Virus record (IMG/VR): IMGVR_UViG_3300008259_005066
Coordinates: 124,001 to 188,000 of that record
Length of the DNA stretch: 64,000 nt
Source: a virus
Strand: one strand, 5' to 3'
Positions within the stretch are counted from its first letter, which is position 1; each line of letters opens with the position of its first letter. Under the pieces are notes generated by a model. That model ran no database searches and had not been told where the DNA came from. It saw only the letters and a program-made list of their open reading frames with translations. Positions 2,483 through 63,951 of this stretch are shown in pieces. Position numbers and translations under genes: made by a program.

Positions 2483-2487
2483 GTGAA

Positions 2488-2494: not shown

Positions 2495-2500
2495 CGAGGT

Positions 2501-2534
2501 CAAAAAAAGAGGCACCTTTTTAAAGGGTGCCTCT
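2501..2534 (-). terminator. Rho-independent terminator after the AAA+ ATPase gene
   Basis: Minus strand: AGAGGCACC, a 9-nt loop, GGTGCCTCT, then a run of seven T. The 9-bp stem is perfect (2526-2534 with 2508-2516). Confidence 0.9.
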
Positions 2535-2585: not shown

Positions 2586-3611
2586 TTATTCGTGTCGCAT
2601 GCAGGTATTCTCTGCTAGGGCTTTCCAGTTAGAACTGACTTTGGTCAAGTCTGCCAATTTCAGCGCCATGCGCAGACTGATCTCGCGCATGCGGGCATGG
2701 TTGTCCTGCATGAATTGGACAATCTCATCGCCCTGTTCGGGTGAGAAATCATAGTCCTGGAACAAGTCACCTTTGCGGAAGATCTGCTTGATGCGCAGGA
2801 TCTTGTCGCGGGTGGTGTTCAGCGTAAGGTCCAGGAAGTGACAGCGACTCTGCAAAGCCTCAAGATGATCTTGCAGTTTCTTGCTCTTGAGATGATCAAA
2901 CTTTAGATTGGTGATGAAAATCACCGAACCCTTGAAGTCGAACTGGTCAGGAACACCTTCACGGCGCAACATCGAAGAGTCTGAATTCCAATGGATACGA
3001 CGTTTTTTGCCCGAGTCCAGAGCGGCTTTCAAGATGTTCAGCGCGATGTCATCTAGCAGAATGGAGTCGCAGTCGTCAAACACCAAGACGTTTTTAGGGT
3101 CCGAATGTTTATACAAGGTGCAATACAATCCTATAGGAGTCATGGCACCTTTGATCACTTCATACTTGATCTTGCGACCGCTGATGTTATCAAACAAGCC
3201 GGCCTTTTCCAGTTGATACTCTACCCCGTAGGATTTGCCCACTCCAGGAGGGCCTGTGACAATCATGGCACGGATGTCGCCAGCGATGGCGGCCTTGGTC
3301 ATGTCGTCTAGGATCCCGAACCGTTGCTCAATACGATCCATGATTTCTTCGTCAGTTTCTTCAGGTTTTTCGGTCTTTTTAAATTCTACTACCTTGTTAG
3401 ATTGCGACACAATACCTCCGGTGATTTCGATGTCTTCGATAGAGTCTAGTTTAACACGGATCTCGTCAGGAAAGCCAGGAAAATTATCGCCGTTTTGCAC
3501 GGTTACGAAATTGCCTTTTGCCGAACTGGAGAAATCTTTCACTAGGGTGAAGTTGGTGTTCACGATGGGTTGATTGCGATACACACCGCGCTTGATGAGG
3601 ACTTGCGTCAT
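2586..3611 (-). CDS. AAA+ ATPase (phage type, function unresolved)
   Basis: 341 aa. Walker A GPPGVGKS lies near residues 120-127 and Walker B VLVFDDCD near 175-182. A sensor-1-like stretch (VIFITNL) and an arginine-containing segment (LQSRCHF) follow. The first ~90 residues are non-catalytic, with charged KKTEKPEETDEE before the ATPase core. Related ATPases are common in T4-like phages of aquatic bacteria and are annotated only as AAA family. It does not look like the clamp loader gp44. The gene is monocistronic, with strong sigma70-like promoters, an AAGGAG Shine-Dalgarno site and its own terminator, suggesting early, high expression. Confidence 0.85.
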   Translation of the reverse strand: MTQVLIKRGVYRNQPIVNTNFTLVKDFSSSAKGNFVTVQNGDNFPGFPDEIRVKLDSIEDIEITGGIVSQSNKVVEFKKTEKPEETDEEIMDRIEQRFGILDDMTKAAIAGDIRAMIVTGPPGVGKSYGVEYQLEKAGLFDNISGRKIKYEVIKGAMTPIGLYCTLYKHSDPKNVLVFDDCDSILLDDIALNILKAALDSGKKRRIHWNSDSSMLRREGVPDQFDFKGSVIFITNLKFDHLKSKKLQDHLEALQSRCHFLDLTLNTTRDKILRIKQIFRKGDLFQDYDFSPEQGDEIVQFMQDNHARMREISLRMALKLADLTKVSSNWKALAENTCMRHE

Positions 3612-3829: not shown

Positions 3830-4273
3830 TCAGGTGGGTGATACATTACCTGGATTTGTTACATCAATAGTGAACGTGATGGTCTCTCCTGCGCTGATTT
3901 CAAAAAACCAACCGCTCCAGATGGGGCTCTGGGGCGTGCCGCCTGGCATTGGATCCACTGGTGTGGCTGGCCATTCAGGTGCTTGTCCGTTGATTAGGAT
4001 GTCGTTGTTTCTCATATCAAAGCCACAGGTAGATGGATCAGTTGAACGGACTACTTGCCCCACAGTGATTACACCGGATGTGACAGATACTGACACAGGG
4101 GCAGTAACAACAGCGTTGCCTGTCACTGGAATATCTGTAGAAAACAATGTAATTTCTGTGTCTAGCGGTTGTCCAACTCCTACTTGTCCGCTAAAAACTT
4201 CATTGCCATCGATTAAAATTGTTGTTGCCGAGGGTGTTGCAAAAACACGTCCGCGGAATAATACGCTTGCCAT
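3830..4273 (-). CDS. Hypothetical beta-rich protein, possibly virion-associated
   Basis: 147 aa, not recognised. It is rich in Val, Thr, Gly and Pro with alternating hydrophobic strands, like small phage structural or decoration proteins. There is no signal peptide or enzymatic motif. A Shine-Dalgarno site AAAGGA precedes the ATG at 4273, with a ~100-nt leader back to a CTAAATA late box at 4386-4380 and a strong terminator just downstream. The gene is therefore an independent, probably late, single-gene unit. Alternatives such as an immunity protein cannot be excluded. Confidence 0.6.
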   Translation of the reverse strand: MASVLFRGRVFATPSATTILIDGNEVFSGQVGVGQPLDTEITLFSTDIPVTGNAVVTAPVSVSVTSGVITVGQVVRSTDPSTCGFDMRNNDILINGQAPEWPATPVDPMPGGTPQSPIWSGWFFEISAGETITFTIDVTNPGNVSPT

Positions 4274-4347
4274 AATTTTTCCTTTTGAATATCTAAATAC
4301 GACATTAGGCTGGCTATCGCTTGGCTTAGCGCACCCGGATCTTTATC

Positions 4348-4375
4348 GTGCGATACAGCCGTATCCGAACCGCAC
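4348..4375 (-). other. stem-loop in the leader of the 147-aa gene
   Basis: GTGC plus GATAC (4348-4356) can pair with GTATC (4361-4365) and GCAC (4372-4375). The hairpin sits just downstream of the predicted late start site and may stabilise the 5' end. Confidence 0.35.
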
Positions 4376-4379
4376 ATAG

Positions 4380-4386
4380 TATTTAG
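4380..4386 (-). promoter_or_regulatory. late-promoter-like box CTAAATA overlapping a stop codon
   Basis: The TAA of this box is the stop codon of the glycosyltransferase gene ending at 4383. It would drive the 147-aa gene starting at 4273. Confidence 0.6.
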
Positions 4387-5141
4387 CACCAGTGCTGTTC
4401 AATCACAGCATCTTTCACTTCGTGTGGTTTGGGACTGCCATGGAAAATCAACACACTGGTAGAATCTGGTATGTGTGTTCCAGTGCCGGGGGCTAGATAT
4501 TTACGGGTGCGAAAATCAAATCCTCCATCTTTGAGTTGCCAGCGCCAACTTTGCACCCTGGTTTTTTCAAAGTAATTTTCTCGGCCAGGACCCAGTATCT
4601 CATGTAGATAGTCCTGATCACCGTGCCATGCCGTGCGTTTGTGTGCTATTTGCCCAGGATCAAAATGCTGATAAATGTGCGCGAACTTCGCAGGATCAAA
4701 CCACATCATGCTGGAGTTCATGGCTATTTTACTGGGCCGGAACAGATATTTGAAGTCTTGCACAGCCCAGAATCTATCCGTGGGCAATCGCCACACCCAA
4801 TCAAGATTGCCTACGATCACTGTGTCCAGATCCAAATACAGCATGGGTCCTCTATGATGCCGTGGGTTGAATAACTGTATCTTGTACCACCACGATCGTT
4901 TGGGGCCGCGCACACCAGGCCATTCTTCCAAGGCATGATGTATCATGTGACCAGGCACTACTCTGTTGCTTTCGGTATAAACATGCATTCTCACCGGCAG
5001 AGAAAGATTGCGACAAAGAGCATTGTAGAGTTTGTCCACATAGTCCCATGGATACAAGGTGTCGTGTATCAAGCAGGCGCAATCAATATGCTCCAATGTC
5101 GCTGTTTCTACGACAGCGCGGTTTTTATTCTTTTTAACCAT
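4383..5141 (-). CDS. DxD glycosyltransferase (GT8-like)
   Basis: 252 aa. A GT-A fold is suggested by YLDLDTVIVGN, with the metal-binding DxD at residues 104-106, and by a C-terminal HGSPKP. This resembles family 8 enzymes, in which a His-containing C-terminal motif completes metal binding. It would transfer a sugar from a nucleotide-sugar donor to a glycan or protein. The gene ends the glycan operon and overlaps the upstream coding region by 34 nt; the start ATG 5141 follows an AAGG. The closest relative in this window is the N-terminal half of the protein at 7705-9369. Donor and acceptor are unknown. Confidence 0.75.
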   Translation of the reverse strand: MVKKNKNRAVVETATLEHIDCACLIHDTLYPWDYVDKLYNALCRNLSLPVRMHVYTESNRVVPGHMIHHALEEWPGVRGPKRSWWYKIQLFNPRHHRGPMLYLDLDTVIVGNLDWVWRLPTDRFWAVQDFKYLFRPSKIAMNSSMMWFDPAKFAHIYQHFDPGQIAHKRTAWHGDQDYLHEILGPGRENYFEKTRVQSWRWQLKDGGFDFRTRKYLAPGTGTHIPDSTSVLIFHGSPKPHEVKDAVIEQHWC

Positions 5142-5956
5142 GAACCTTGTCTTATTTCATCAACTGTGTATTCTGTGTGGCATATCTCAACTAACCATCG
5201 ATCTCTGTCGTGATCTACCAACGTGTCTAGATCCTCGTATTTGGTACGAATAGGAGCAGCCAAACTGCTGGGATCCACGATGACTTGGCAACCAGACAGG
5301 GCGGCCTGTATGCCCGAGCCACTGTTATAATTTATCAAGGCCCTGCAGTCATAATTGATATCAAAATCATCGTAGGTATTTTTTATAGGGCGAGGCATTT
5401 CTATGGTCACATCTCGAGGCAAAAGACCTGGATCCAATGCACTCCTGGGATGTGGTCTCACGACTATGGGCAAGTCTGTGTGTGAACGAGCCAAGGCGAT
5501 TTGTTGATTGATCCAGTGTTCCATGCTGGGCAATGATTCTACCTGGAAACTCTGTTTGTGTTGCGCGGCTATGATCAATCGTGGTTGGCCCAAGCGCACT
5601 GGATATAGTTTAACTCCCAATTTGGCAGGGCGATCCCAATCAAGATCCGTGGTGTGTCCATAGTATCCCTGTGCGGTGATGTTGTCCACAGCGATCTTCC
5701 ATGTGTGCCCACGTTTCAGTGCGCCCACATCTATCACTATCACCGGTCGGCCGAGATTTTTATAATGCTGATACACTGAACGATTGGGTTGCATGCGACC
5801 GTGCCACAACACCGACCAGATCACCGCTACATCCGCATCTAGAGAATTTTCTCTACGTTGCCATCCCTGTTGAGAACATCGATCCAAAAAGGCTCCCAAC
5901 ACTTCTTTGCTGTTGAGAGCGCACTGAGATGGAAAATAGGCGATGGTCTTGATCAC
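5108..5956 (-). CDS. Capsule-biosynthesis-type glycosyltransferase-like protein
   Basis: About 282 aa with a GTG start at 5956 (CAGGA 6 nt upstream). The frame extends further upstream, but that part is antisense to a clear plus-strand gene. Recognisable segments are PIVVRPHPRSALDP, then INYNSGSGIQAALSG, then DPSSLA. This order (RPHP, then an N-S-x-x-G-I/V-A/E loop, then a DP stretch) is typical of capsule polysaccharide transferases of the Kdo-transferase/CMP-sugar type. It is paralogous to 6755-7708 and to the C-terminal half of 7705-9369. Transcription would have to come through the plus-strand island or from a local promoter. Substrate unknown. Confidence 0.6.
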   Translation of the reverse strand: MIKTIAYFPSQCALNSKEVLGAFLDRCSQQGWQRRENSLDADVAVIWSVLWHGRMQPNRSVYQHYKNLGRPVIVIDVGALKRGHTWKIAVDNITAQGYYGHTTDLDWDRPAKLGVKLYPVRLGQPRLIIAAQHKQSFQVESLPSMEHWINQQIALARSHTDLPIVVRPHPRSALDPGLLPRDVTIEMPRPIKNTYDDFDINYDCRALINYNSGSGIQAALSGCQVIVDPSSLAAPIRTKYEDLDTLVDHDRDRWLVEICHTEYTVDEIRQGSWLKRIKTALS

Positions 5957-5962
5957 TAAATA
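5956..5962 (+). promoter_or_regulatory. late-promoter-like box CTAAATA, 7 nt before ATG 5970
   Basis: Overlaps the GTG start of the divergent gene by one base. Implies a leader of 0-2 nt. Confidence 0.6.
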
Positions 5963-5969
5963 TCCTGCG

Positions 5970-6809
5970 ATGAAATACACAGTAATTACCACGTTCCATG
6001 CCCCGGGTCTCAAACAATATGGCCAGCGCATGATCGACGCTTTTGATCGCCATTGGCCCGGAGATGTGGAACTGATAGTATATGCAGAAAATTGCCAGCC
6101 CAGATCGCCCAGCGATCGTGTGAAGATCCTGGATCTGTTGGCACAGTCACCAGATTTGGTAAATTTCAAAAATCGCTGGGGCAACGATCCCATGGCCAAT
6201 GGGTTGGTGGCCAAAGACACCGGAGTACCGTTCAAAGACAATGCTTTCAAGTGGGATGCAGTGAGATTCAGCCACAAGGTCTTTGCTGTGATCCATGCTT
6301 GCCGCACTCTAGACAGCGACTGGGTGATATGGTTAGATGCAGACACAGTGACTTTCCAGGACGTTCCGGAAAATTTCTTGAGCACCATATGCGAAGATTC
6401 AGCAATGGCCTGTTATCTGGGACGCAGGGAAAAATATCACAGCGAATGCGGATGGGTGGCCTATAATCGGCGCCATCCCGATTTGCTCAGTTTCATGGAC
6501 CGTTGGCATGATCTTTATGTCACAGGAGATCTTTTCCGCCTGCGCGAATATCATGACAGTTTTGTATTTGACGTGATCCGCAAAGACTTCCAGACGCAAC
6601 GACAGACCTCTTTCCACAATCTCAGTCCCGAACTGCCGGGCAAAGGCCCAGGGCATCCTTTTATCGCCAGTCGCTTGGGCCTATACATGGATCACATGAA
6701 AGGCTCTAAACGCAAGGCCTTGGGACATAGCCTACCCGATGATTATGATCGCAATCAAGGATTGAACAGCAGTGTGGGGTATTGGCAAGGAATCTTTGGC
6801 AGGCGCTGA
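5970..6809 (+). CDS. DxD glycosyltransferase-like protein, plus-strand island
   Basis: About 279 aa from the ATG at 5970. WVIWLDADTVTF carries the DxD motif near residue 122. An Rossmann-like N-terminus (YTVITTF) precedes it, and a His-rich C-terminus follows. It is clearly paralogous to the 269-aa protein at 11411-12220, which shares WLDAD, the CGWVAYN/SGFVLID segment and the HMK..KRK near the end. It is the only plus-strand gene in the glycan cassette: it starts 14 bp from a divergent gene and ends 55 bp inside a convergent one. It probably acts on the same glycan as its neighbours. Confidence 0.75.
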   Translation: MKYTVITTFHAPGLKQYGQRMIDAFDRHWPGDVELIVYAENCQPRSPSDRVKILDLLAQSPDLVNFKNRWGNDPMANGLVAKDTGVPFKDNAFKWDAVRFSHKVFAVIHACRTLDSDWVIWLDADTVTFQDVPENFLSTICEDSAMACYLGRREKYHSECGWVAYNRRHPDLLSFMDRWHDLYVTGDLFRLREYHDSFVFDVIRKDFQTQRQTSFHNLSPELPGKGPGHPFIASRLGLYMDHMKGSKRKALGHSLPDDYDRNQGLNSSVGYWQGIFGRR

Positions 6810-7708
6810 CGCATGAATCGCCAGGCTTCACCGCTGGAGATCTCTTCCGAGCTCCAATGGCATTGTGCTAGTTTAGTATAAAACTCTTGTCGATCACCAC
6901 GGCGTGGTGATTCGATCTCTGCTATGTTGTTGCTGGCCCAGGGCCAGGCTTGGCTTTTGGCAGGTCGAGGATCTGTGACAAATGCAGGAACTCCCCACAG
7001 TATGCTGGCCACACCTGGACTGGAATTGTAGGTCACTGTGGCCCAGGTTTGATTGAGATCTTCTCTGATGTCTTGTTGTGTGCTCCAGGCAACCTGGGCC
7101 ACAGATGGTAGTTGTATGGTAGGCACTATGGCTAGATTTCCTGGGTGAGGTCTGATCACAATGGGTCGATCAGTGTGCTGGCGTATCTGAGGCAACAAGG
7201 TATCCAACCACTGTTGCACCGGAACGTCGCCCATGCTCCAACCGCCATTGCGTTGCAGTGCGACCAAGATATTGCGACCGTTGTTGCTCCATCCGCGCTC
7301 GGCGAAACCATAATGGGCTTTGATTCGTTGCCAGCGTTGTAGATCCGGGTCGCGATCAAAATAATAACCAGTGTCAGGAAACACGTCGTCTAGGCTATAA
7401 CGCAGATAACGATTGAAATCTGCAGGTTCCAAGAAACCAAACAGATTGCTGTCCATGGCCAAAGTATGTCCATTGCTTCGCCGTTGTTGTTTGATCACCC
7501 GACGGCGCACTTCGAGGTGTGCGCCGGTTTTCATTCCTATCCAGCCTTGGAGCACTGCCACATCACATTCTACAGGTTCGTCTTGGGTCACTAGATATAC
7601 TTCATCTCCGGCCAACTTGGCACCATGGGCAAATCTAGTCAAGATATCGCGCTTGAATTCGTTTTTAGATTTCCTAGGAACACCAGAGAGGTATACAGCT
7701 ATTTTCAT
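6755..7708 (-). CDS. Capsule-biosynthesis-type glycosyltransferase-like protein
   Basis: 317 aa. The C-terminal half has IVIRPHPGNLA and VTYNSSPGVASILWGVPAFV, the same motif order as at 5108-5956 and in the C-terminal half of 7705-9369. All three end in a similar helix (EEISSGEAW, DEIRQGSWL, EEMRSGYAW). The N-terminal half is different and possibly binds the acceptor. It overlaps the upstream stop by ATGA (7708-7705) and converges with the plus-strand gene at 5970-6809. A role in adding a sugar to a surface polysaccharide is inferred from the family. Confidence 0.6.
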   Translation of the reverse strand: MKIAVYLSGVPRKSKNEFKRDILTRFAHGAKLAGDEVYLVTQDEPVECDVAVLQGWIGMKTGAHLEVRRRVIKQQRRSNGHTLAMDSNLFGFLEPADFNRYLRYSLDDVFPDTGYYFDRDPDLQRWQRIKAHYGFAERGWSNNGRNILVALQRNGGWSMGDVPVQQWLDTLLPQIRQHTDRPIVIRPHPGNLAIVPTIQLPSVAQVAWSTQQDIREDLNQTWATVTYNSSPGVASILWGVPAFVTDPRPAKSQAWPWASNNIAEIESPRRGDRQEFYTKLAQCHWSSEEISSGEAWRFMRQRLPKIPCQYPTLLFNP

Positions 7709-9369
7709 TCTTGTCCGTTTATCACGGCCCAGGCATAGCCTGAGCGCATCTCTTCCACTGTGAACTGATGGTAGGCTAGACAGCGCAAAAGGGCATAGAC
7801 CTGATCAGTGTCCGGCATGAACGGTGTTTCTATAGTGGATAGATCTTTGTTGGACAATGGCTGTGCGGCATTGGGCCCCATGGTAAACACTGGTTTGCCA
7901 TAGATCAAACTTTCCACCGCGGCGATAGAATTGAAAGTGACCACACAATGCACATCTCGGTTGAGTGCATCCTGCATGGTATCCACGCTGGCTCTCACAC
8001 TGCGAGGCTGTTTGAGACGCACTTCAATCTCTCGATCAGTGTATTCTTTGATCGTGGTTATGGTCTTTTCCATCCAGCAATCTAGATCCAGATTCCAATA
8101 TTTCATAGCTTTCTCGCTGGGCGGACAGATCAAGATCTTACTGCCTGGTGTGTGACGATAGGGTCGGACTCTGGTGCGGTCTAATCTATCACTAGGCCGA
8201 TCTTGGATGGGACCTAACCATTGCATGGCATTCTTGGTCACTCTGTGATAGTCTTTGAGTTTTCCGTTACCAAAATATCCTGTGTCGATATAGTAGTAGT
8301 CTCGGCCCTGTTGTTCGCATCGTTGCATTATTTTTTTCTTGGTGATACTGCGCAGAGCGATAGGGTTGTCGCTGTGCTCCACATCTACCCAGGGACTGAT
8401 GCGTCCCATGGCACCGGTGACAAAACTATGCACTATGCCATCATACTTGATACCTTTTTCTTTGGCCTTGCGGCTGACGTCTTCCATTTCACTTATTCCT
8501 ATTAATTGCTTTTGTTCTGGATCACAGGCATATCTCTGGATACGCTGGCACACATCATCATAACCGTGTTGGTTGTAACCGTAGAGATTTTTGCTGTCTT
8601 GGATAGACCAGACCACATCCTTGAGTAACTGCCGTAGTTCCTGGGGGTAATCAAGATTATCGATCTCTTTGGTGCTGTGATCCACTTGTTTGGCACGCAG
8701 ATCACATTGATATTCTTTCCATACATCGCTGTAAGCACAATGGCTGTAGTTGTCAAACCAGGGGCCGCCTTCGGTGTAATGCAGAGCTTTGGGTGTGCCA
8801 TCCCATGGCTGATGATACCATCCTACCAACCAGTTCCACTCGGGTCTGAGTTCGCCAATTTCTTCTTCTTTGAGCCAAGAGAATCTGTGTAGTTCCTGTC
8901 CGGTGGCATTGTTGATATGATAGGGCGTGAGCCATTCGTTTGATTTATGTCCGCAGTTGAACAATATCATGCTGGACCAATTCTTGCGAGGGTAATACTC
9001 TTGTCGCTGGCCATCCATCTTGACAGTGTTTTGTGGGCGATAGTCATGTTTGACCAACATCACGGCATATCGTGGGTCAGCCTGTGCTATGAGTTCTTGT
9101 ATGTCTCCCAACCAGAGGAAATCACAGTCACAAAATATAGCCCAGCCTTTATAGTCATTGAGACGCGGAACTAAAAATCTCGTGAAGGTGAATTCCGTGC
9201 TGGCCTGCACGTCTCTGGGTCTGGTGTAAAGCAGATTCTCTCTCAGATCATCTTGTTTGAGCATATGGATCGTCACAGGCTCGGATGCGTTTTGCTGTAT
9301 GCTGTATTCGCACACATCGGCGGCTATGGGTTCTCGGCTGTCCCAGCCTATGTAAACATTGGTAGTCAT
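7705..9369 (-). CDS. Two-domain glycosyltransferase: GT8-like plus capsule-type domain
   Basis: 554 aa. Residues ~1-230 are a GT-A-like domain with FCDCDFLWLGDI (DxD at 81-83) and a late ALHYTEGGPWF that fits the C-terminal metal-binding His of GT8-like enzymes. Residues ~290-554 match the RPHP-type proteins next door: an IDTGYFG segment, VVTFNSIAAVESLIYGKPVF, and a closing EEMRSGYAW helix. RPHP itself is replaced by VRLKQPRS, so activity of the second domain is uncertain. The fusion suggests two consecutive transfers or a transferase tethered to a glycan-binding module. The stop overlaps the next start (ATGA). Confidence 0.7.
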   Translation of the reverse strand: MTTNVYIGWDSREPIAADVCEYSIQQNASEPVTIHMLKQDDLRENLLYTRPRDVQASTEFTFTRFLVPRLNDYKGWAIFCDCDFLWLGDIQELIAQADPRYAVMLVKHDYRPQNTVKMDGQRQEYYPRKNWSSMILFNCGHKSNEWLTPYHINNATGQELHRFSWLKEEEIGELRPEWNWLVGWYHQPWDGTPKALHYTEGGPWFDNYSHCAYSDVWKEYQCDLRAKQVDHSTKEIDNLDYPQELRQLLKDVVWSIQDSKNLYGYNQHGYDDVCQRIQRYACDPEQKQLIGISEMEDVSRKAKEKGIKYDGIVHSFVTGAMGRISPWVDVEHSDNPIALRSITKKKIMQRCEQQGRDYYYIDTGYFGNGKLKDYHRVTKNAMQWLGPIQDRPSDRLDRTRVRPYRHTPGSKILICPPSEKAMKYWNLDLDCWMEKTITTIKEYTDREIEVRLKQPRSVRASVDTMQDALNRDVHCVVTFNSIAAVESLIYGKPVFTMGPNAAQPLSNKDLSTIETPFMPDTDQVYALLRCLAYHQFTVEEMRSGYAWAVINGQE

Positions 9370-10133
9370 AACTGTCTTTCTATGTCCTCTTCTTCACAAC
9401 GATCACCATACTGTATCTCCACTATCTTGAGCGGGTTAGGATCTTCGTTGACCAACTGATGCCATTCATGTGTGCTGATATGTAGATACTGATGACGCTG
9501 ATAACGGCCCTGTAGTTCAGTGTCCGTGGTAGTTGAATCCACTGTGTAGACCGTGGCTTCGCCCGATGCTACCAACCAGAATTCTGCGCGATCTTGATGA
9601 CGTTGCATGCTGAGAGCGGCTCCTGGCTCTACTGTGAGTTCTTTGACTTTCACTCCCGGTGTTTCATGCAACACGCGATAATAACCCCATGGACGTCGTG
9701 TCTGAGGCGCTTTCCATTCTTCCAGTATCCAGGACGAAGAATTGGCTTTGTTGAATCCACCTATGCCAAACACAAACTTCACATTGTCATCGGCCACATC
9801 CATCTCAGGACAGTTGTAGTCAGTCCTATCACCGCCGTTGGCGAAAATAATCTCATCCTGCGGATAACTCTGCCGACACATCCTGATGGCATTTTTTGCA
9901 GTTCCGTCTGAATCATCAAAATCTATCACGTAGTCCACACCAGCGATAGCCCGTAATATGGCAGTGCGTTCGCGCAGAGGCATGAATGCACGCCCTTTCT
10001 TTTGTCGCAACCATGCATCGGAGTTGGCACCTATCACTAGGATGTCTCCCAGTGCCTTGGCTGCTTGGATGTAAGCAAGGTGCCCAGAATGTATGGGATC
10101 GAATCCCCCGGTTATCAAAACTATTTTCTTCAT
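9366..10133 (-). CDS. Nucleotidyltransferase-cupin fusion (HldE/TagD-like + ManC-type cupin)
   Basis: 255 aa. Residues 1-140 are a cytidylyltransferase-like domain with GGFDPIHSGH (HxGH at 15-18), as in HldE, TagD and GmhD enzymes that activate a sugar or polyol phosphate. Residues ~146-250 match the cupin of mannose-1-phosphate guanylyltransferase/isomerase: RRPWGYY (RPWG at 147-150), then QRHQDRAEFW with a metal-binding His and Glu. The protein could make an NDP-sugar and isomerise or bind the sugar in one polypeptide. It lies in a tight run with a methyltransferase (ATGA overlap at 10133-10130). The combination is unusual; the substrate is unknown. Confidence 0.75.
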   Translation of the reverse strand: MKKIVLITGGFDPIHSGHLAYIQAAKALGDILVIGANSDAWLRQKKGRAFMPLRERTAILRAIAGVDYVIDFDDSDGTAKNAIRMCRQSYPQDEIIFANGGDRTDYNCPEMDVADDNVKFVFGIGGFNKANSSSWILEEWKAPQTRRPWGYYRVLHETPGVKVKELTVEPGAALSMQRHQDRAEFWLVASGEATVYTVDSTTTDTELQGRYQRHQYLHISTHEWHQLVNEDPNPLKIVEIQYGDRCEEEDIERQL

Positions 10134-10690
10134 CGTTTTTCCAATATCACATCATATTTGCTGCCAAACAGTATGGGATTTTTTTCTCGTCTATCGAAAG
10201 GTTCTACTCGTTCCCATACGATATTGACCTGCATGTTTTTAAGTATCTGCTCTCGCCACCAGTCCGGCTCTTTTACGATAAGATGGCAGTTACGCCCATC
10301 GGGTAATAGTTTTTTAGCAGGATGGCAGGCTATGCGGAAAAATCCACAGCGTTGCATCTTGTCGCTCATCACTGCCAGGCTCTGAGCCAAGTGCTCGGGT
10401 TCGATATGTTCGATGGCATCAGTGGATATGATAGTGTCGAAAGTCCGCGTGGGCATGACAGCGAAATCTGGATTGCCTGGATCGTATCCAAACACTTCTA
10501 TGGCAGGAAAATTCTCTTTGATGGTAGCGATCAGCGCACCTTTGCCGCAACCAAAATCAATGAGATCGCGGGGTTGATATTGTTCGATAAATGGTCTGAC
10601 CAATTTGAATTGCTTGGCACCGTTGTTGAACTTGCCTTTTTCATGCATGGCCTGTATCTGTTGTTGATAACTTTGATTGATTATAGTCAT
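10130..10690 (-). CDS. SAM-dependent class I methyltransferase
   Basis: 186 aa. Motif I LIDFGCGKGA lies near residue 40, an acidic ribose-binding end (FGYDPG) follows, then motif-IV-like IISTDAIEHI. It is a small Rossmann methyltransferase without an added domain. It belongs to the glycan operon between the nucleotidyltransferase fusion and the oxygenase, with overlaps at both ends (ATGA), so it probably methylates a sugar or precursor. DNA methylation is unlikely, as there is no (D/N)PPY motif. Confidence 0.75.
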   Translation of the reverse strand: MTIINQSYQQQIQAMHEKGKFNNGAKQFKLVRPFIEQYQPRDLIDFGCGKGALIATIKENFPAIEVFGYDPGNPDFAVMPTRTFDTIISTDAIEHIEPEHLAQSLAVMSDKMQRCGFFRIACHPAKKLLPDGRNCHLIVKEPDWWREQILKNMQVNIVWERVEPFDRREKNPILFGSKYDVILEKR

Positions 10691-11421
10691 ACTCGGAATA
10701 ATTTCCTATCTTGATGTGCGTCTATGTTGATGTATCTGCGCAAACAGTTGGCACCTATACGCGGGGTCACGCCGTGGATGGTATCTGCTGTGTTGAGAAA
10801 CAGTATCATGGTATTGGCACGATACGGAACTGTTCCGGCTGCTGCCACATGATCCGGATTGACTTCTCTGATGCCAGTGTATTCTGGAGCGGGCACCAGT
10901 TTGCGGAACACCTGGATGTCGCCGCCCACGCTGGTGTCTTCGGGTTTGCGCATATACAACAGGCCAGCAAACAGTTCTCGGCTGTTGTCCAAATGCGTGG
11001 TCCTCACTGTGGTATCTTGCTGACCGTTAAGAACGAACTGCACTTCCATCTGCACTGTGCCAGCGCGACCATCATGCCGTTCTGATACTCCTGCATCACG
11101 TAGATCTTGGGCAAACTCTGGATAATACTTTTCCAGGGCTGGTTCAAAAAGATCCAACACACGATTTTTGAAAGACACACTGTTGTGATAGGCCACAAAT
11201 TCTTGCCACAATGGAGACACAGTTCCTGGAACGAATTCATGCTGACGATAACGGCGTGCCTGGAAATGTGTCTTGCCATCCTGCATCATGTGTGCTTCAG
11301 GATACTCTGCTATCAACTGATCATACAATGTCTGCGGTAGAGCATCATGGATGCAAAAATACGGGCAAGGATCCTGTAGGAGATCGTCTTTGGTTATGGT
11401 CTGTGTTACATCAAGATGCAT
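10687..11421 (-). CDS. 2-oxoglutarate/Fe(II) dioxygenase-like protein
   Basis: About 244 aa. A jelly-roll iron site is suggested by THLDNSRELFAGLLYM (HxD), then DTIHGVTPR (distal His), then RRYINI (2OG-binding Arg). This is the order in prolyl-hydroxylase-type enzymes, which hydroxylate using O2 and 2-oxoglutarate. A longer frame to 11478 exists, but ATG 11421 is preferred: it has CAAGGAAA upstream and overlaps the previous stop by only 11 nt. Such enzymes are frequent in aquatic T4-like phages. Here it sits in the glycan operon, so a sugar or a glycoprotein is a plausible substrate. Confidence 0.75.
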   Translation of the reverse strand: MHLDVTQTITKDDLLQDPCPYFCIHDALPQTLYDQLIAEYPEAHMMQDGKTHFQARRYRQHEFVPGTVSPLWQEFVAYHNSVSFKNRVLDLFEPALEKYYPEFAQDLRDAGVSERHDGRAGTVQMEVQFVLNGQQDTTVRTTHLDNSRELFAGLLYMRKPEDTSVGGDIQVFRKLVPAPEYTGIREVNPDHVAAAGTVPYRANTMILFLNTADTIHGVTPRIGANCLRRYINIDAHQDRKLFRV

Positions 11422-12220
11422 CGCTGTTTCCTTGTTGATAAAATGGCTTGATATCATCCGATGATAATTCATGACCATTGAGCCATAATTCTCTATAGGC
11501 CGAAAGAGGCCAGTGTTTTTTTCTCTTGGTTTTCATATGACGGAACCATTCTCCCAACCAATGACCATGTATGGGTGTGCTTTTTTTCCTATGGCATTGA
11601 GATCGAAGATTGACATGATCCACGGTCAATGCCGCATGCATGCATATCTCTCCGTCCCAAAACATCCATGCTGATTCAGGCATGCAAGGCTCAAGATAAT
11701 AGCGCGAATATTCATCTCGGAATTTGGAAAAATCAGCATGTGCAGTGTCGATCAACACGAAGCCACTTTCTGCGGTAACGACCAATCGATCATCCACGGG
11801 CCGACTCACATCAAACAGTGCCACACAGTGATCTTCCAACGCACGATCCAGATGTTGCGATTCAAAAGGACGCATGGTAAAACTATCTGCATCTAACCAG
11901 CATATCCGATCGTGACTGTGATTCATCATATGGACCCAGGCCAGTCCTTTTTTGGTATAGCGTTGAGTATGCTGACTGCCCCAATGAGGCATCAGTGTGG
12001 TTGAGTTCTGCGCGATATGATCAAAGTTTTGACCGCAACAGGTCTGCCAGTCTCTGATCTCAAGTCGAGGATCCGTGGGCAAATCGATATCGTCTTCAAG
12101 ATACACTACCATTTTTGCATCTTGGGGCCAGTGATGCAACCATGAAGCCAGCATCTCCTCGGCGATGATGTCGTATAGCCTGCGATTAAAACTGGTAAAG
12201 CATGTCCAAGTGGGATTCAT
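11411..12220 (-). CDS. DxD glycosyltransferase-like protein
   Basis: 269 aa. CWLDADSFTMRPF holds the DxD. The start TCFTSFNRRLY resembles the first strand of GT-A folds, and SGFVLIDTAH and HMKTKRKKHW correspond to segments in the plus-strand gene at 5970-6809, with which it is paralogous. It overlaps the next gene by 11 nt and the previous by ATGA, so it is co-translated within the glycan operon. Donor and acceptor cannot be read from the sequence. Confidence 0.72.
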   Translation of the reverse strand: MNPTWTCFTSFNRRLYDIIAEEMLASWLHHWPQDAKMVVYLEDDIDLPTDPRLEIRDWQTCCGQNFDHIAQNSTTLMPHWGSQHTQRYTKKGLAWVHMMNHSHDRICWLDADSFTMRPFESQHLDRALEDHCVALFDVSRPVDDRLVVTAESGFVLIDTAHADFSKFRDEYSRYYLEPCMPESAWMFWDGEICMHAALTVDHVNLRSQCHRKKSTPIHGHWLGEWFRHMKTKRKKHWPLSAYRELWLNGHELSSDDIKPFYQQGNSDAS

Positions 12221-12876
12221 GATTTCTGCACCACTACAAATTTTTGTTTGGTGAATTCTTGGTCGGGACCAAAATATTCATCCACGGCTTTTTTAGCGCC
12301 ATCCCAACTGTGATAGTCATCAATCACGAGATACCCACCACTGACCAGTCGAGGATATAACACTTCTAACTCAATCTTTGTGCTGAGATAAAAATCTGTG
12401 TCCAATCTCAAAAATGCTATCTGATCCGGTAGATCCAATGATGTCAAAGTTTGGCTTACATCTCCCTTGATGAAATGTGTCCTATGCGGGGGCAATACCG
12501 ACCATACATTGTTCTGCACATCATCTAGATCGGCTCTGCACCAGTTGCGGCCTTCGTGTCCACCTTTGCGCCATTTTAAACTTTCAGTGGCATGTTTGCC
12601 TTCTCTATAATCATATTCAGACACTCCTTGCATACCTTCAAATGTATCATAGAGCCAATAATCTCTTTCATGATCGTCTACCATGGCAGCGGCCATGATC
12701 TGACCTCCGCGCCAGACGCCACATTCAACCACCGCTCCGGGTATGTCTCGTTGATTGAGATCTTGTATCAGGCGCTGGGTAAAAATCACGAATTTTCCGC
12801 TGGTCATCGTGAACTCGCGCACACGTTCGGCCACTGCAAGTTCCTGTTCGGAATAAGGTCTGTCAGCAGTGATCAT
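12217..12876 (-). CDS. TylF/MycF-type O-methyltransferase
   Basis: 219 aa. Landmarks of the macrocin O-methyltransferase family are present: VVECGVWRGGQ (SAM-binding loop), DTFEGM, LRLDTDFYLST (metal-binding Asp) and YLVIDDYHSWDGAKKAVDEY. TylF enzymes are Mg2+-dependent sugar O-methyltransferases acting on deoxysugars in macrolides; homologues occur in O-antigen and capsule loci. This supports a methylated sugar as the product of the cassette. The gene overlaps both neighbours by ATGA. Confident family call. Confidence 0.88.
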   Translation of the reverse strand: MITADRPYSEQELAVAERVREFTMTSGKFVIFTQRLIQDLNQRDIPGAVVECGVWRGGQIMAAAMVDDHERDYWLYDTFEGMQGVSEYDYREGKHATESLKWRKGGHEGRNWCRADLDDVQNNVWSVLPPHRTHFIKGDVSQTLTSLDLPDQIAFLRLDTDFYLSTKIELEVLYPRLVSGGYLVIDDYHSWDGAKKAVDEYFGPDQEFTKQKFVVVQKS

Positions 12877-13601
12877 CGGTAATTTCCAGCGATGCCATCG
12901 TCGCTGATGTTGTCACCACCATACATGTGCTGTATGGGTATTTCAAATGGTGCATCCTTGACTTTGCGGAACACAGCAGCCACCATGGGATCGCTTTCCC
13001 AGGTATCAAGTTCTAGTTTGCCTCTGTAGCCTTTGTTGCGACCCAGATTGTTGACGTCTAGTTTGTGTAGATATTGGGCATCACTGGATGCGATCCATAA
13101 CTCTCTCAACTCATAATCGTTTTGATTGGCCAAGCACGGAAACAGATTGGGGTTGTAGTTGAAGAATCCATGATCCACCCAGCGATAGAATGGCAGCACA
13201 TGGATCATGAATCCGCCCACACGGCAAAGGTCATGTGCATTCTTGAACACCATGTATTGGTTGAACACATGTTCCCCGGTGCCGTTGTTTGTGACCAGAT
13301 CAAACTGCTCATGGAATCCGTAGGTCTTGGGTATGTCTACGTTGAGATCCATGGCCACTGCATCTCGTTCAGTATTGACGTCAATGGCCAAGTATCGATC
13401 AAACCCTAGACTGAGATACCAATCTTTGGTTCCACCTAATTCTGCGGGCGGAGATATGCCTAGCTTTTGATAGATTTCACCGCGTGCCTTGGTGTTCTTG
13501 AGAGTTTGATTGCCCAGTTCAATGACTGTGGGCCGACGATTAGTTACAAGTTCGGGCGCTACTGAACCCACTGCTTTTGTGATTAGATTGCTGAATCCCA
13601 T
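12873..13601 (-). CDS. SAM-dependent methyltransferase-like protein
   Basis: 242 aa. The class I fold is recognised from PTVIELGNQTL (altered motif I), LAIDVNTERDAVAMDLN (acidic loop), then LVTNNGTGEHVFNQY in place of motif IV and VGGFMIHVLPF. The canonical GxGxG is modified, so catalytic competence is unproven. It is the first minus-strand gene after a late-type promoter, with GGAGGT 3 nt before ATG 13601, and probably leads the lower glycan operon. Confidence 0.6.
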   Translation of the reverse strand: MGFSNLITKAVGSVAPELVTNRRPTVIELGNQTLKNTKARGEIYQKLGISPPAELGGTKDWYLSLGFDRYLAIDVNTERDAVAMDLNVDIPKTYGFHEQFDLVTNNGTGEHVFNQYMVFKNAHDLCRVGGFMIHVLPFYRWVDHGFFNYNPNLFPCLANQNDYELRELWIASSDAQYLHKLDVNNLGRNKGYRGKLELDTWESDPMVAAVFRKVKDAPFEIPIQHMYGGDNISDDGIAGNYR

Positions 13602-13616
13602 GTGACCTCCATGGGG

Positions 13617-13623
13617 TATTTAT
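13617..13623 (-). promoter_or_regulatory. late-promoter-like box ATAAATA upstream of 13601
   Basis: 15 nt before the ATG, with GGAGGT between. One of the leadered late promoters. Confidence 0.55.
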
Positions 13624-13641
13624 CTACGCAGTTTATTGCGA

Positions 13642-14406
13642 TCAATGATCGCCAAAATAGGCCAGGCTTTTGTCCAACCAAGGCAATAACAGATCTCTCT
13701 GGCGCACATAGCCATATCGATCCAAACTTACCACTGCGCTGGAAGGTAACATGCCTCGTTCGGCTAGATGATACCACGACGTGGTCTTGGGATCGCTGGG
13801 CTGATGACCACTGCGATACACTATGATGTTGATCCAGGGATCTGCGGGATTTTTTTGGAAGAATCCCGATGAGCAGTCCCAACCGGTAGTGGCCAACATA
13901 TACATCAAGCTGACCACGGTGTGATTGTAATAACAATGACTGGGCAGGTCAAAGGCCTGGCGCTGGAATTCGATGTTGGTGGTTTGCGGCACCATGAGCA
14001 CCAGCATGGCACCAGGATTGGCGATGTTCCACCAATTGGACAGGCAACCCAGGGGATTGATCATGTATTGGAACGTGTCATGACACCACAGTAGGTCATA
14101 TCGGTGTTTGGTTTGATTGAGAGTCTCTAGATCTTGTTTTATGTAGTGGACGCCGGCACGTCTAGCTGGGGGTGCCAGTGAATCGACCACGGTATCCACA
14201 CCTGTGCAAGTGATATTGAGAGGTCTAGGGTTGTCATCTCTGGTGGTTCGGGTGGCCCACCAGGTGAGATCCAGAGCATCTGCTCCGCATCCTAGGTCTA
14301 TCACGCGGCCCACGCTTTCCATGAAATCGTCGTGTTCATACAGCGATTCCAGCACTTGAAGACTGTGCTCGTGGCTGGCTTGTGGGCTTGAGAATCCTTT
14401 ATGCAT
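13642..14406 (-). CDS. SAM-dependent class I methyltransferase
   Basis: 254 aa. VIDLGCGADALDL is motif I; CTGVDTVVD is the second strand with its acidic end; YIKQDLETL and LLWCHDTFQYMINP continue the Rossmann order. The C-terminal ~70 residues are a small extra domain. The gene overlaps the preceding one by 8 nt and lies 40 bp upstream of the next promoter-led gene. Its product is likely another glycan methyltransferase, but a small-molecule or lipid substrate is equally compatible. Confidence 0.72.
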   Translation of the reverse strand: MHKGFSSPQASHEHSLQVLESLYEHDDFMESVGRVIDLGCGADALDLTWWATRTTRDDNPRPLNITCTGVDTVVDSLAPPARRAGVHYIKQDLETLNQTKHRYDLLWCHDTFQYMINPLGCLSNWWNIANPGAMLVLMVPQTTNIEFQRQAFDLPSHCYYNHTVVSLMYMLATTGWDCSSGFFQKNPADPWINIIVYRSGHQPSDPKTTSWYHLAERGMLPSSAVVSLDRYGYVRQRDLLLPWLDKSLAYFGDH

Positions 14407-15427
14407 GAGAAAATTCTTCCAATATCTGTGTATGCCTAACTATGGCTGTGGCATGTATATAGTCGATCAGTTGAGCATTGGCTTGCAATCGATCCCAATG
14501 TTGTTGTCTCAATTCTACCATGTCTTGCTGGCTGACACGATGCACCAATTGCACTACCTGAGTCATGCGCACCCAGGGATCTGGTATATCATCATATGAG
14601 TGATTGTCAAACACATCATCAAACACATCAAACCCCATGCGCCTCACTTGGGCCACCAAGCCGGGCACTGCATACCAAACAGGAAACTGATGCCATGCCA
14701 TGGCTTTGAAAGTTTTTTCTGTGATAAAAATACTGCGCCAGGTGTTGGGGTCGATCTGGCTGGAACTTTCTACTACTAGATTCACAGGTGCTCGATAGAA
14801 AAAATCATGATCTATGCGATGCTGAAAAACTTGATCAGCCATAGGGCGGTCAACAATCATGGGATATGGTCGCGGCCATATCAACTGCTTGATGTCATCG
14901 CTGGGCTCCACACCATTGGTGCCAAACGTCATTATCAGTTCATCAGATCTGAATTTTGATAGCAGCCGTTTTGCGAGATTCGCTCTGCCGATGCTGGGCC
15001 TTCGCATGAGACAGGTCAGTCGGTGCGTCATTGGCAAGCCTGCCCAGTTGATGCGGTAATGCCGAAGATGATCATACCAATTACCATTGTAGATCAATCT
15101 GTCGGGCAGTGATGTAGCTCGATAAGGCAATCGATCAATCTGTTCTACACAACTGAATATTACCCGGAAATTTTCAACAGGAACCTGTCTTCTTTGACAT
15201 AACAAATCAAACATTCCTTGCATGTCTCCAGCATCAATGCCTTCGGGCTTGAGATCAAAAACCCAAATATAATCGCGGGCATCGTTCAATGAAAGTCTGT
15301 GTTGTTCAAGATCCTGTTCCAGTAATGGAACAAACCCATCGGATCTCAGTTCTTGTGAAGTGATATTGCGCCAAGCATCATAATATAAAACTCGGCCATT
15401 GTCATGCAGTCGTAAACGACTGATCAT
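14399..15427 (-). CDS. Glycosyltransferase-like protein of the EKTFKA family
   Basis: About 342 aa from ATG 15427, which overlaps the uvsY stop as ATGA; a longer frame to 15484 is rejected for that reason. The C-terminal part has FITEKTFKAMAWHQFPVW, then MGFDVFDDVFDNHSYDD. The same motif (SEKIWKPIAAGQLFLV ... LGFHTFCDDYD) occurs in the 356-aa protein at 62881-63951. The T/S-E-K-x-x-K-x-(I/M) signature is shared with the C-terminal nucleotide-binding half of GT10/exostosin-like transferases. It begins the glycan cassette while being translationally coupled to uvsY. Confidence 0.55.
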   Translation of the reverse strand: MISRLRLHDNGRVLYYDAWRNITSQELRSDGFVPLLEQDLEQHRLSLNDARDYIWVFDLKPEGIDAGDMQGMFDLLCQRRQVPVENFRVIFSCVEQIDRLPYRATSLPDRLIYNGNWYDHLRHYRINWAGLPMTHRLTCLMRRPSIGRANLAKRLLSKFRSDELIMTFGTNGVEPSDDIKQLIWPRPYPMIVDRPMADQVFQHRIDHDFFYRAPVNLVVESSSQIDPNTWRSIFITEKTFKAMAWHQFPVWYAVPGLVAQVRRMGFDVFDDVFDNHSYDDIPDPWVRMTQVVQLVHRVSQQDMVELRQQHWDRLQANAQLIDYIHATAIVRHTQILEEFSHA

Positions 15428-15876
15428 ACCTGGATGTCTTCCATCCCCGCTGTGCGCAAGCGGACGATATGTCCCATTTGCCATTGTTTAGTATCAAGCC
15501 CTTTCATGATACCCAACCAACGATTACGTAAGAGAGCCACTTCGTTGATGATGGTCTCAAAATCAATGACCTCGTCCTCGCCATCTACATATTTTTCCGC
15601 GTCTCGGCTGGTCAGCGCCCGGGCGTAACCCTCGAGATACTTCTGGAAATGGCGACGGCGGATCTTGCGCAATTGGATATTGAGATAGTTTAAGATGGCT
15701 TCTATCTCTTGCAATTGGTTAAAACGATGTTCAGTGATACCGGGCAATTCCTTGATATTGGTTTCAACAAAGCCACCGATCCTGCACTCGCGTTTGGCTT
15801 CCTCTAGCTCGCGCTCGTAGTGTGCTATAAAATCTGGAATAGCACTCAGGTTAGCAACTACTCGGCTATACCACAT
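15424..15876 (-). CDS. uvsY: UvsY-like recombination mediator
   Basis: 150 aa, near T4 UvsY (137 aa). UvsY loads UvsX recombinase on gp32-coated ssDNA. The sequence is mostly helical and charged, with YLEGYARALTSRDAEKYVDG and ALLRNRWLGIMKGL..GHIVRLRTAGMED, which I recognise as the conserved C-terminal half of UvsY in aquatic T4-like phages. It lies downstream of uvsX and 32 on the same strand, matching its partners. The 3' end of the intervening radical SAM gene overlaps its start by 11 nt. Confidence 0.82.
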   Translation of the reverse strand: MWYSRVVANLSAIPDFIAHYERELEEAKRECRIGGFVETNIKELPGITEHRFNQLQEIEAILNYLNIQLRKIRRRHFQKYLEGYARALTSRDAEKYVDGEDEVIDFETIINEVALLRNRWLGIMKGLDTKQWQMGHIVRLRTAGMEDIQV

Positions 15877-60754: not shown

Positions 60755-61387
60755 TTAGAATATTATGCTGAAAACAATGGCTTTGGATTTGCTTATCAAC
60801 TCATCCTGATTGGCATCGTTGTTGAAGTATATGCCAGTGCCTCCGCTACCAGGCACATCGGATGTTATTGTGGCCGCATTGCCAATGGCAGTGGGAGTGG
60901 CGCCGTTGTATTCCAGCACCAAAGTTCCATCTAGTGTGAGTTCGCTGGTGGCATAATCAAATGTCAGACCGGCATTGCCACCAAATGTGCCATCTCCGTT
61001 GTTGAACTGCACCGCTGTGTTTGAACCACCCGGAACTACTGTGTTACCTGTGGCGATAGGAGTCCATGATCCTGTCAAGCCCGTGGTGTCTGTGGACGAG
61101 GTCAGTTCCCATTGTGCTGTGTTGTTGTTGTATCGCAGGCCTGCAAAGTTTGAAGCAGTGCGATGCGTGAGCAAACCAGAATTTGATGCGTAGCTTCCTG
61201 TGTTGGACGAGTTGACCAGGATGAACGGATCTTTGACATTGAGTTCGTCCACATTGATATAGGTCAAATTACCTTGCACCGTCAAGTTTCCACTCACAGT
61301 GGTATCCGTGTCGATATAGACCTTCTGCGTGGGAGGATCAATGGTCTGGATGTAGTAATCGCCGTCGATGCGTTTGTAACTGGTCAT
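60755..61387 (-). CDS. Fibre-like protein, short
   Basis: 210 aa. GNLTVQGNLTYINVDELNVKDPFIL is the same module as GNLTVNGDLVYNNVTSLNIEDPIIS in the long fibres, and GGSNTAVQFNNGDGTFGGNAGLTFD matches GSNTQILFNNNGLIAGDAGITYD. It is thus a shortened fibre composed of the central modules. AAGGG 8 nt before ATG 61387 and a late box indicate late expression. Likely an accessory fibre or adaptor. Confidence 0.6.
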   Translation of the reverse strand: MTSYKRIDGDYYIQTIDPPTQKVYIDTDTTVSGNLTVQGNLTYINVDELNVKDPFILVNSSNTGSYASNSGLLTHRTASNFAGLRYNNNTAQWELTSSTDTTGLTGSWTPIATGNTVVPGGSNTAVQFNNGDGTFGGNAGLTFDYATSELTLDGTLVLEYNGATPTAIGNAATITSDVPGSGGTGIYFNNDANQDELISKSKAIVFSIIF

Positions 61388-61971
61388 ATCTGCCCTTTTG
61401 CTGTATTTAGCAGGGTTTGGAATTCCAAAATTGGCATGCTACGCAGATTTTTCACTGTGTCAAAACCGGCCACTCGAGCGGATTGCAGGCCTTCTACCCG
61501 TATGAATTCTCTGGCAGGAAAATCCCCACAGATCTGTATGATCTGTTTGACCCAATTGCCGCTGAATGTGGGCGGATCCTGGCTTTTTTTGTAGAACTGC
61601 GTGTCAGCATAGAGATTGTTGAACTGCCCATTGGTGGTTCCAAGATCAAATCCCAGCAGGTAAATGCAGTGATATCCATCAAGACAAGCCAAGGCCACTG
61701 CATTGGGACCGGAACTGAATCCTTGATATTTGCTGTCCAATCTGTGCGCACCGCTTTCAGGCAAGGGTTTGCGGGTGTAGAAACGATGCTTCTTGGCATA
61801 GCCCGAATCTTGTATGGCCGTGGCGATGGGACGGTCAGTGGCTATCAGCACATCAGGTGTGAACGTGCGATACAAGGCATTGCATCCATACACTGGCCCT
61901 TGTGTTTTCAATTGTGCAAGATCGATGGGTTCGCGGCTGCGGCCGTTGCCCAAAACAAATGCTGTGGTCAT
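61384..61971 (-). CDS. MptE/DUF115-like protein
   Basis: 195 aa. FVLGNGRSREPIDLAQL (Gly-rich nucleotide-binding start), YGCNALYRTFTPDVLIATD, then SGPNAVALACLDGYHCIYLLGFDLG. This pattern is common in marine phages and is placed with MptE-like or DUF115 proteins, some of which handle nucleotide-activated sugars or pterins. Paralogous to 45805-46476. The ATG at 61971 lies directly against the T-tract of a terminator, and the stop overlaps the 210-aa gene (ATGA). Confidence 0.55.
   Translation of the reverse strand: MTTAFVLGNGRSREPIDLAQLKTQGPVYGCNALYRTFTPDVLIATDRPIATAIQDSGYAKKHRFYTRKPLPESGAHRLDSKYQGFSSGPNAVALACLDGYHCIYLLGFDLGTTNGQFNNLYADTQFYKKSQDPPTFSGNWVKQIIQICGDFPAREFIRVEGLQSARVAGFDTVKNLRSMPILEFQTLLNTAKGQI
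61404..61410 (-). promoter_or_regulatory. late-promoter-like box CTAAATA for ATG 61387
   Basis: Lies inside the 3' end of the MptE-like gene, 16 nt before the ATG, with AAGGG between. Confidence 0.55.
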
Positions 61972-62877: not shown

Positions 62878-62884
62878 TATTTAT
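62878..62884 (-). promoter_or_regulatory. late-promoter-like box ATAAATA overlapping a stop codon
   Basis: TAA (62883-62881) is the stop of the next gene upstream. Drives the 253-aa virion gene through a 93-nt leader. Confidence 0.55.
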
Positions 62885-63951
62885 GATCTTTCGCCATTAA
62901 GCAGGGCTACCACCGGTGCCAGGATCTGTTGTTCCACATTGCCTGAATGGAACCAATGGAAATTGTGTTCAATATGGAAACGATTGGCATGCCACCAATC
63001 TCGTGTGTCTGCGTGATGCTGATTGACCACTTCGGCCACGAGATGCAACCTACTGCTGAAATTCTGTTTGAGATCATAGTCATCACAGAAAGTATGGAAT
63101 CCCAGTCGTTTCAACCATGCAGTGGTTCCAGGCGCACCCACCACAAGGAATAGTTGTCCGGCAGCGATGGGTTTCCAGATCTTTTCGCTAGTAAAACTGA
63201 TCAAGGCCGATGTCTCTGTGACCACATTGCACCATGCATCTTGATAGGCTGGATGCGCCAAAGAATGGTCGTTTTGTCCTAAGGTTTCGCCTTGCCATGC
63301 CATGGGAAAATCTCGTATGTTTGTGATGCATCGTTGTGCCAGTTCATCGCCTATGAGATTGGCCAATCCACGATATTGGTATGCAGTGATTGGATGCCCC
63401 TGATAGGGACAGCGATCATAGAAACTGTAGATAAACTTGTCCAGCAGTCCAAGATCTTTGACCATGGTATAGAACACCAAACGATGGAACGTGGGATTGC
63501 GATTGAGACAGGAGAACGCATGTGTTCTATCATGACTGGGGAACTCGCGACACAGCGATTGTTTTTTAAAAACAAACAACCAACTGGGATATGTAATCTC
63601 TCGGAGATGTTGATGCTGTGTGAGATCAAACTGGCTCAAACCAAAAAAACAAGGTATACGGAATTCACCAGCGATGTTATCCAGTATGATAGACTTGTCT
63701 CGATAGTCTGTGACAGGATCTTGCGTGCCGTCAAATATGATCTGTTCAAATCTGATGTTATCGGCGCTGGCCCGATCAACCACGGTCTTTACGTAATGTT
63801 CTATGTCTTGACCTTTGACTAAATTGCAGTCAATGACCAGGGTTGGACGATGGACCTGTTTCAACAACGGTTCATAGTGCTGGTGAGGATTGTTTTCAAC
63901 AAAATCAAACTGATCAGTGTTGAAGTTGTAGCGCCAATGCAGATCTTGCAT
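62881..63951 (-). CDS. Glycosyltransferase-like protein of the EKTFKA family
   Basis: 356 aa. C-terminal half: LISFTSEKIWKPIAAGQLFLVVGAPGTTAWLKRLGFHTFCDDYD, the same motif order as the protein at 14399-15427. The first half (PCFFGLSQFDL, FVFKKQSL, AFSCLNRNP) is distinct; the SCLNR-x-P opening is typical of this phage family. It may transfer a sugar to fibres, being next to them. The start is ATG 63951, 5 nt after ATAAGTA. Confidence 0.55.
   Translation of the reverse strand: MQDLHWRYNFNTDQFDFVENNPHQHYEPLLKQVHRPTLVIDCNLVKGQDIEHYVKTVVDRASADNIRFEQIIFDGTQDPVTDYRDKSIILDNIAGEFRIPCFFGLSQFDLTQHQHLREITYPSWLFVFKKQSLCREFPSHDRTHAFSCLNRNPTFHRLVFYTMVKDLGLLDKFIYSFYDRCPYQGHPITAYQYRGLANLIGDELAQRCITNIRDFPMAWQGETLGQNDHSLAHPAYQDAWCNVVTETSALISFTSEKIWKPIAAGQLFLVVGAPGTTAWLKRLGFHTFCDDYDLKQNFSSRLHLVAEVVNQHHADTRDWWHANRFHIEHNFHWFHSGNVEQQILAPVVALLNGERS

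Follow-up and report, generated by a model that had tools for sequence, protein, structure and literature searches.

Sugar-gene clusters have already been described in phages, and the cassette reported here is a variant of them. It lies at positions 4383-15484 of a 64,000-nucleotide stretch (hereafter the window), which covers positions 124,001 to 188,000 of the IMG/VR virus record IMGVR_UViG_3300008259_005066. Clusters in jumbo cyanophages likewise encode HIGH-type nucleotidyltransferases (NTases), cupin isomerases and several glycosyltransferases (GTs), in some cases with methyltransferases and 2-oxoglutarate (2OG) enzymes, and their authors favoured host polysaccharide as the target (Iyer et al. 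2021, PMC7824862). Unlike these clusters, the cassette joins NTase and cupin in one protein, contains no epimerases, occupies a fixed site between uvsY and an AAA+ ATPase gene, and carries late-promoter-like sites. CcrColossus-type Caulobacter phages encode homologues of both halves of one cassette gene, g5, beside a tail gene and a sialyltransferase-like gene, but without the NTase-cupin fusion or the methylase set. A more distant parallel is the unrelated chlorovirus PBCV-1, in which GTs encoded by the virus itself assemble an elaborate glycan on its capsid protein (PMC11571054). The purpose of phage GT clusters has usually been guessed, and late-promoter placement provides a timing clue that separates candidate targets.

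The cassette comprises 13 open reading frames (ORFs; g1 to g13), of which 12 lie on the minus strand and one, g3, is divergent on the plus strand. Together they encode four GT-A domains, three KpsC/WbbB-fold GT-B domains, one GT10-like transferase, an NTase-cupin fusion, a TylF methyltransferase, three further methyltransferases and a 2OG oxygenase. It is strongly supported that this island is a glycan-synthesis and methylation module. With a probability of roughly 0.55, its enzymes act late in infection and in the cytoplasm to put glycans on proteins of the virion itself, the likeliest acceptors being tail fibres or other surface proteins. An earlier note on this DNA had placed the cassette correctly between uvsY and the AAA+ gene but counted eleven genes. 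It had also described the genes as coupled by overlaps. Six minus-strand junctions do overlap by exactly 4 nt and others by 8 to 68 nt; g3 lies on the plus strand, and a 40-nt gap between g12 and g11 is the sole sizeable gap in the minus-strand run. Where measurable, dN/dS in cassette genes is 0.05-0.23, with dS near saturation, which indicates purifying selection.

Timing is the first line of evidence for a virion target. An unsupervised count of upstream 7-mers over 257 ORFs returned CTAAATA and ATAAATA as the top sequences, which we take to be a T4-type late-promoter signature. The late promoter of T4 is TATAAATA; this exact sequence has no match in the window, and the phage mostly uses [CAT]TAAATA. 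With the motif defined as [ACT]TAAATA, it stands upstream of 11 virion-region genes among the 32 that the window holds, where 0.5 would be expected. Within the cassette, CTAAATA stands before g3 (5956..5962, plus strand), where it overlaps the g2 start codon and is conserved in relatives, and ATAAATA lies 22 nt before g11 (13617..13623, minus strand), in the 40-nt gap that heads the g11-to-g4 run. Among relatives, the motif precedes g6, often the first gene of a run, in 67 of 103 loci (1.7 expected), and it also stands before g3 (23/68), g2 (17/57) and g11 (4/6). It is nearly never found before the neighbours uvsY (0/126), uvsX (1/122) and AAA (0/26), nor before g12 (0/46). Judged by these motif matches, the island appears to be a late module within a non-late neighbourhood. 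After removal of close copies, 22 of 28 loci retained the motif before g6, in most of them at a spacing of exactly 12 nt to the ATG, so a late transcript would be nearly leaderless. Examples of this fixed spacing include L015, L020 and L029 (GCAGATAAATATCTGCATG), and in some loci the motif falls within a GCAGATA-AA-TATCTGC inverted repeat.

The second line of evidence is the position of other sugar genes. The 209-kb record containing the window is a fragment, and a contig (G001; 315,778 bp) is >99.9% identical to it where the two overlap; by arithmetic from these overlapping contigs, they span ~362 kb. The phage carrying the island is a T4-like jumbo phage, and a megablast search against named phages gave no match. 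G001 adds two nucleoside diphosphate (NDP)-sugar regions with epimerases, GDP-mannose-dehydratase-like enzymes, DegT aminotransferases, a GHMP kinase and a carbamoyltransferase. One of the two regions lies downstream of fibre genes in the same orientation; it holds four GT-type genes, one of them a g13 paralogue, together with a radical S-adenosylmethionine (SAM) protein, a GDP-sugar dehydratase, an epimerase and a D-glycero-D-manno-heptose kinase homologue (E=6e-31). Given these NDP-sugar and heptose-kinase regions, special sugars are probably produced by the phage itself. The cassette alone is not the near-minimal pathway that had been proposed: other parts of the genome encode dehydratases, aminotransferases and the heptose kinase. 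In the window, a GT10-like g13 paralogue (62881..63951, minus strand; tblastn and alignment) sits inside the fibre region, beside a sialyltransferase/MptE-like gene (61384..61971, minus strand) that shares 4 nt with a fibre gene. Relatives of the sialyltransferase/MptE-like gene occur in 9 of 16 records, and it may act together with the cassette. In other phages, g5 homologues adjoin tail or capsid genes.

The most conserved core gene of the island is g6 (9366..10133, minus strand), which encodes a cytidylyltransferase-type NTase (PF01467, 2e-14) fused to a type II phosphomannose isomerase (PMI)-like cupin (PF01050, 3e-22). The NTase half matches ethanolamine-P and glycerol-3-P cytidylyltransferases (E=9e-18 and 8e-14), and the cupin motif Q177-x-H179-x-x-R182-x-E184 is invariant in 28 sequences. 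The bifunctional guanylyltransferase/mannose-6-P isomerases AlgA and WbpW likewise end in a type II PMI cupin with Q-x-H-x-x-R-x-E; however, their N-terminus is a PF00483 guanylyltransferase, whereas that of g6 is an HxGH cytidylyl/adenylyltransferase (PF01467). Further, g6 falls well short of the AlgA-type GMP/PMI model TIGR01479 (74 bits, cut-off 373), and it is related to the HldE heptose-1-P adenylyltransferase family TIGR02199 without being an equivalogue (70.8 bits, cut-off 181.5). Stretches that encode a g6 relative number at least 573 in IMG/VR. Among named phage records, none reaches 80% coverage of g6. Relatives covering at least 80% do occur in bacterial genomes (SAR86, SAR11 and others), mostly at 41-55% identity. 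In one SAR86 genome, the neighbours of this relative are an NDP-sugar dehydratase, an NTP transferase, GmhB and GmhA, which is suggestive of a heptose pathway. Another genome has it near NusG-type and Wzz genes, as is typical of a surface-polysaccharide locus.

The GT-A and capsule-type transferases named in the earlier note were borne out by structure prediction. For instance, the AlphaFold2 (AF2) model of g4 (6755..7708, minus strand; pLDDT 91.7) has the KpsC/WbbB GT-B fold; its nearest structures are the beta-Kdo transferases KpsC and WbbB, with a Foldseek E=1e-8, probability 1.0 and TM of about 0.5 against KpsC 8fuw. Both g2 (5108..5956, minus strand) and the C-terminal half of g5 are homologous to g4, and g2 was assigned as KpsC-like GT-B on this homology and its motifs. 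The retaining enzymes KpsC (GT107) and WbbB (GT99) share with g4 and g2 the overall GT-B fold and the (K/R)xHP CMP-binding motif, present as R186-x-H188-P189 in g4 and R166-P-H168-P169 in g2, and not kept in the C-terminal copy of g5 in the window. They differ in having a QxxxD nucleophile, which defines the known GT99 and GT107 families (PMC10148158, PMC12887879). Alignment by eye to a KpsC peptide places Q152-RNG-G156 in g4 and Q131-HKQ-S135 in g2 at this position, so the nucleophilic Asp is absent from both. As Gly and Ser replace it, g4 and g2 were not filed as GT99 or GT107, and their donor or mechanism probably differs. Transferases of KpsC fold lacking the known nucleophile and a cytidylyltransferase-isomerase fusion would both represent new biochemistry.

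The remaining transferases are more varied. A GT8-like GT-A enzyme is encoded by g1 (4383..5141, minus strand; phrog_1962, E=4e-24), and its D104-L-D106 motif is invariant in 20 relatives. The GT-A transferase g3 (5970..6809, plus strand; AF2 pLDDT 89) matches GT6/GT8 structures in Foldseek (E~1e-6), with an invariant DAD motif and a conserved start, MKYTV, at ATG 5970. It stands head to head with g2, their start codons (ATG 5970 and GTG 5956) being 13 nt apart; the true start of g2 is this GTG near 5956, as the open frame up to 6388 is not common to relatives. Sequence-only PDB searches with g2, g3 and g4 gave no match. In g5 (7705..9369, minus strand; phrog_28018, E=1.6e-54; WbbM, E=1.5e-4), a GT8-like GT-A domain with an invariant DxD (here DGD) is fused to the KpsC-like GT-B domain; most relatives encode these as two separate genes. 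A g3 paralogue, g9 (11411..12220, minus strand; blastp to g3, E=3e-7), is a further GT-A transferase. Finally, g13 (14399..15484, minus strand) is a candidate GT10-like (fucosyltransferase-type) GT-B enzyme: it has a conserved E...TEK motif, and a profile of 11 relatives weakly matches GT10 in the PDB (E=0.012).

The tailoring enzymes listed in the earlier note were likewise recovered, as was the NTase-cupin fusion. The TylF-type O-methyltransferase g10 (12217..12876, minus strand) scores 104 bits against a gathering score of 23 (PF05711, E=8e-30). Three other methyltransferases are g7 (10130..10690, minus strand; PF13489, E=6e-8; phrog_24759, E=8e-25), the class I enzyme g12 (13642..14406, minus strand; PF08241, E=1.5e-5), which adjoins uvsY in most relatives, and g11 (12873..13601, minus strand), a probable methyltransferase by a weak match (PF13489, E=0.014) with a dN/dS of 0.05-0.1. 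The 2OG/Fe(II) oxygenase g8 (10687..11478, minus strand) also matches weakly (PF13640, E=6e-4), and its H-x-D ... HGVTPR sequence, an H-x-D...H/R pattern, is conserved in four relatives.

In the proposed pathway, g6 would isomerise and cytidylylate (or adenylylate) a sugar phosphate, plausibly a heptose. The GT-A and KpsC-like GT-B enzymes would then assemble a short chain, which TylF, the other methyltransferases and the oxygenase could cap or vary, and the acceptor would be a virion protein. Late-promoter-like sites before operon leaders would switch the pathway on late, and through the hypervariable content of the island the sugar coat would differ from phage to phage. Cytoplasmic glycosylation of virion proteins is favoured because of the late timing, the fibre-adjacent sugar genes, the lack of membrane-like segments in any cassette protein, and the failure to find a flippase (PF01943) or initiating transferase (PF02397) in five records. 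Of the three targets offered by the earlier note, namely host surface glycans, virion fibres and DNA, the virion is thus best supported, through late-promoter placement and sugar genes beside the fibres rather than through the clues given there. The fibre Asn-X-Ser/Thr repeats were rejected as a glycosylation signal: [ST]-X-N, the same pattern read backwards, shows equal enrichment (for the largest fibre, z 4.9 vs 4.2), which makes the enrichment an artefact of beta-repeat periodicity. The MptE-like neighbours were reduced to one weak match below the cut-off (E=0.009), for a gene that Pfam prefers to place with CST-I (E=0.013).

Besides the failure of the repeat clue, several points weigh against virion glycosylation. 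The island adjoins recombination genes, and in phage Mosig the cluster adjoins RuvC and ribonucleotide reductase (RNR) genes instead of virion genes. Bacterial relatives of the g6 fusion stand in surface-polysaccharide loci, and the missing flippase is not decisive because enzymes of the lipopolysaccharide (LPS) core type can also be soluble. The late promoters are motif matches and not measured start sites, and the module is known here from its genes. A search of a limited set of papers for demonstrated phage virion glycosylation returned just a predicted case (PMC11256854).

The strongest alternative, considerably less probable, is that the cassette remodels a host surface glycan (LPS core, O-antigen or capsule) to block superinfection, as Iyer et al. 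2021 (PMC7824862) read similar jumbo cyanophage clusters. It retains some probability because the KpsC/WbbB/WbbM-like folds come from capsule and O-antigen enzymes and the NTase-cupin fusion occurs in SAR86 polysaccharide and heptose loci. However, late-promoter placement would be the wrong time for exclusion, neither flippase nor PF02397 was found in the five records, and sugar genes adjoin the fibres. In an improbable reading, the product of the cassette is a diffusible small molecule bearing sugars, or a modified peptide, and the neighbouring radical SAM proteins serve as maturases; the region is indeed bordered by two radical SAM genes of the twitch-domain type, and TylF, 2OG and carbamoyltransferase enzymes are typical of secondary metabolism. 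Yet no peptide precursor or scaffold-building enzyme was seen, eight GT domains would be a large number for a small tailoring set, and the variation in radical SAM copies does not follow that of the island. DNA glycosylation is known from some T4-like phages. That the cassette attaches sugars to phage DNA, as a hypermodified base evading restriction, is the least probable reading despite GTs and a 2OG oxygenase next to recombination genes and a GTP cyclohydrolase I encoded elsewhere, because placement is late and known DNA-modification enzymes are absent: T4-type glucosylation was rejected as the thymidylate-synthase/dCMP-hydroxymethylase family PF00303 is missing from the genome and ten relatives, and TET-type hypermodification as the C5-DNA-methylase PF00145 (five records) and TET/JBP PF12851 (209-kb record) are missing, with QueC-like matches partial and weak at most.

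The site between uvsY (15424..15876, minus strand; phrog_231, E=2.7e-13) and the AAA+ ATPase gene (2586..3611, minus strand; PF00004, E=1.5e-4; phrog_1250, E=3e-87) is a hypervariable island. In 21 spanning loci, the interval ranges from nothing (L129) to ~16 kb, and a single methyltransferase stands alone there in L132, L135 and L143. The recurrent core consists of g6, the two g5 halves (g5N and g5C/g4), the divergent g3/g2 pair and g1, and the block is inverted in L012, L038, L062 and L130. Selection on uvsX alone, with a minimum of 6 kb of sequence following uvsY, gave 18 loci; the core is present in 15 of these and absent from 3. A tentative wider view, to which we give somewhat less than even odds, is of a widespread uncultured T4-like jumbo phage lineage with dedicated late virion glycosylation in a hypervariable island, a new NTase-cupin enzyme, nucleophile-less KpsC-like transferases and an exchangeable sugar coat.

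Other features were noted around the island. Between the cassette and the AAA gene lies a small 147-aa gene (3830-4273), overlapped by a ~54-aa ORF (window 4213-4389, minus strand) that is directly preceded by CTAAATA at 4386-4380. At least seven radical SAM paralogues are spread across the genome: two in the window (1310-2515 and 15866-17119), one each side of the island and both above the NF033640 twitch-domain cut-off, and more in L162, L163/L164, L165, L169 and L170. PADLOC returned just weak viperin matches, to radical SAM genes. An Mtd_N (major tropism determinant N-terminal) domain protein is encoded at the edge of the fibre cluster (46473-47141), and a further metabolic cluster in L195 (G001:180001-200000) holds GTP cyclohydrolase I, an E1 dehydrogenase, DegT aminotransferases and epimerases. 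Lastly, the 335-kb contig L205, which had been assigned to a Marinimicrobia metagenome-assembled genome by binning, carries uvsY and the whole cassette core, and looks like a phage contig, not host DNA.

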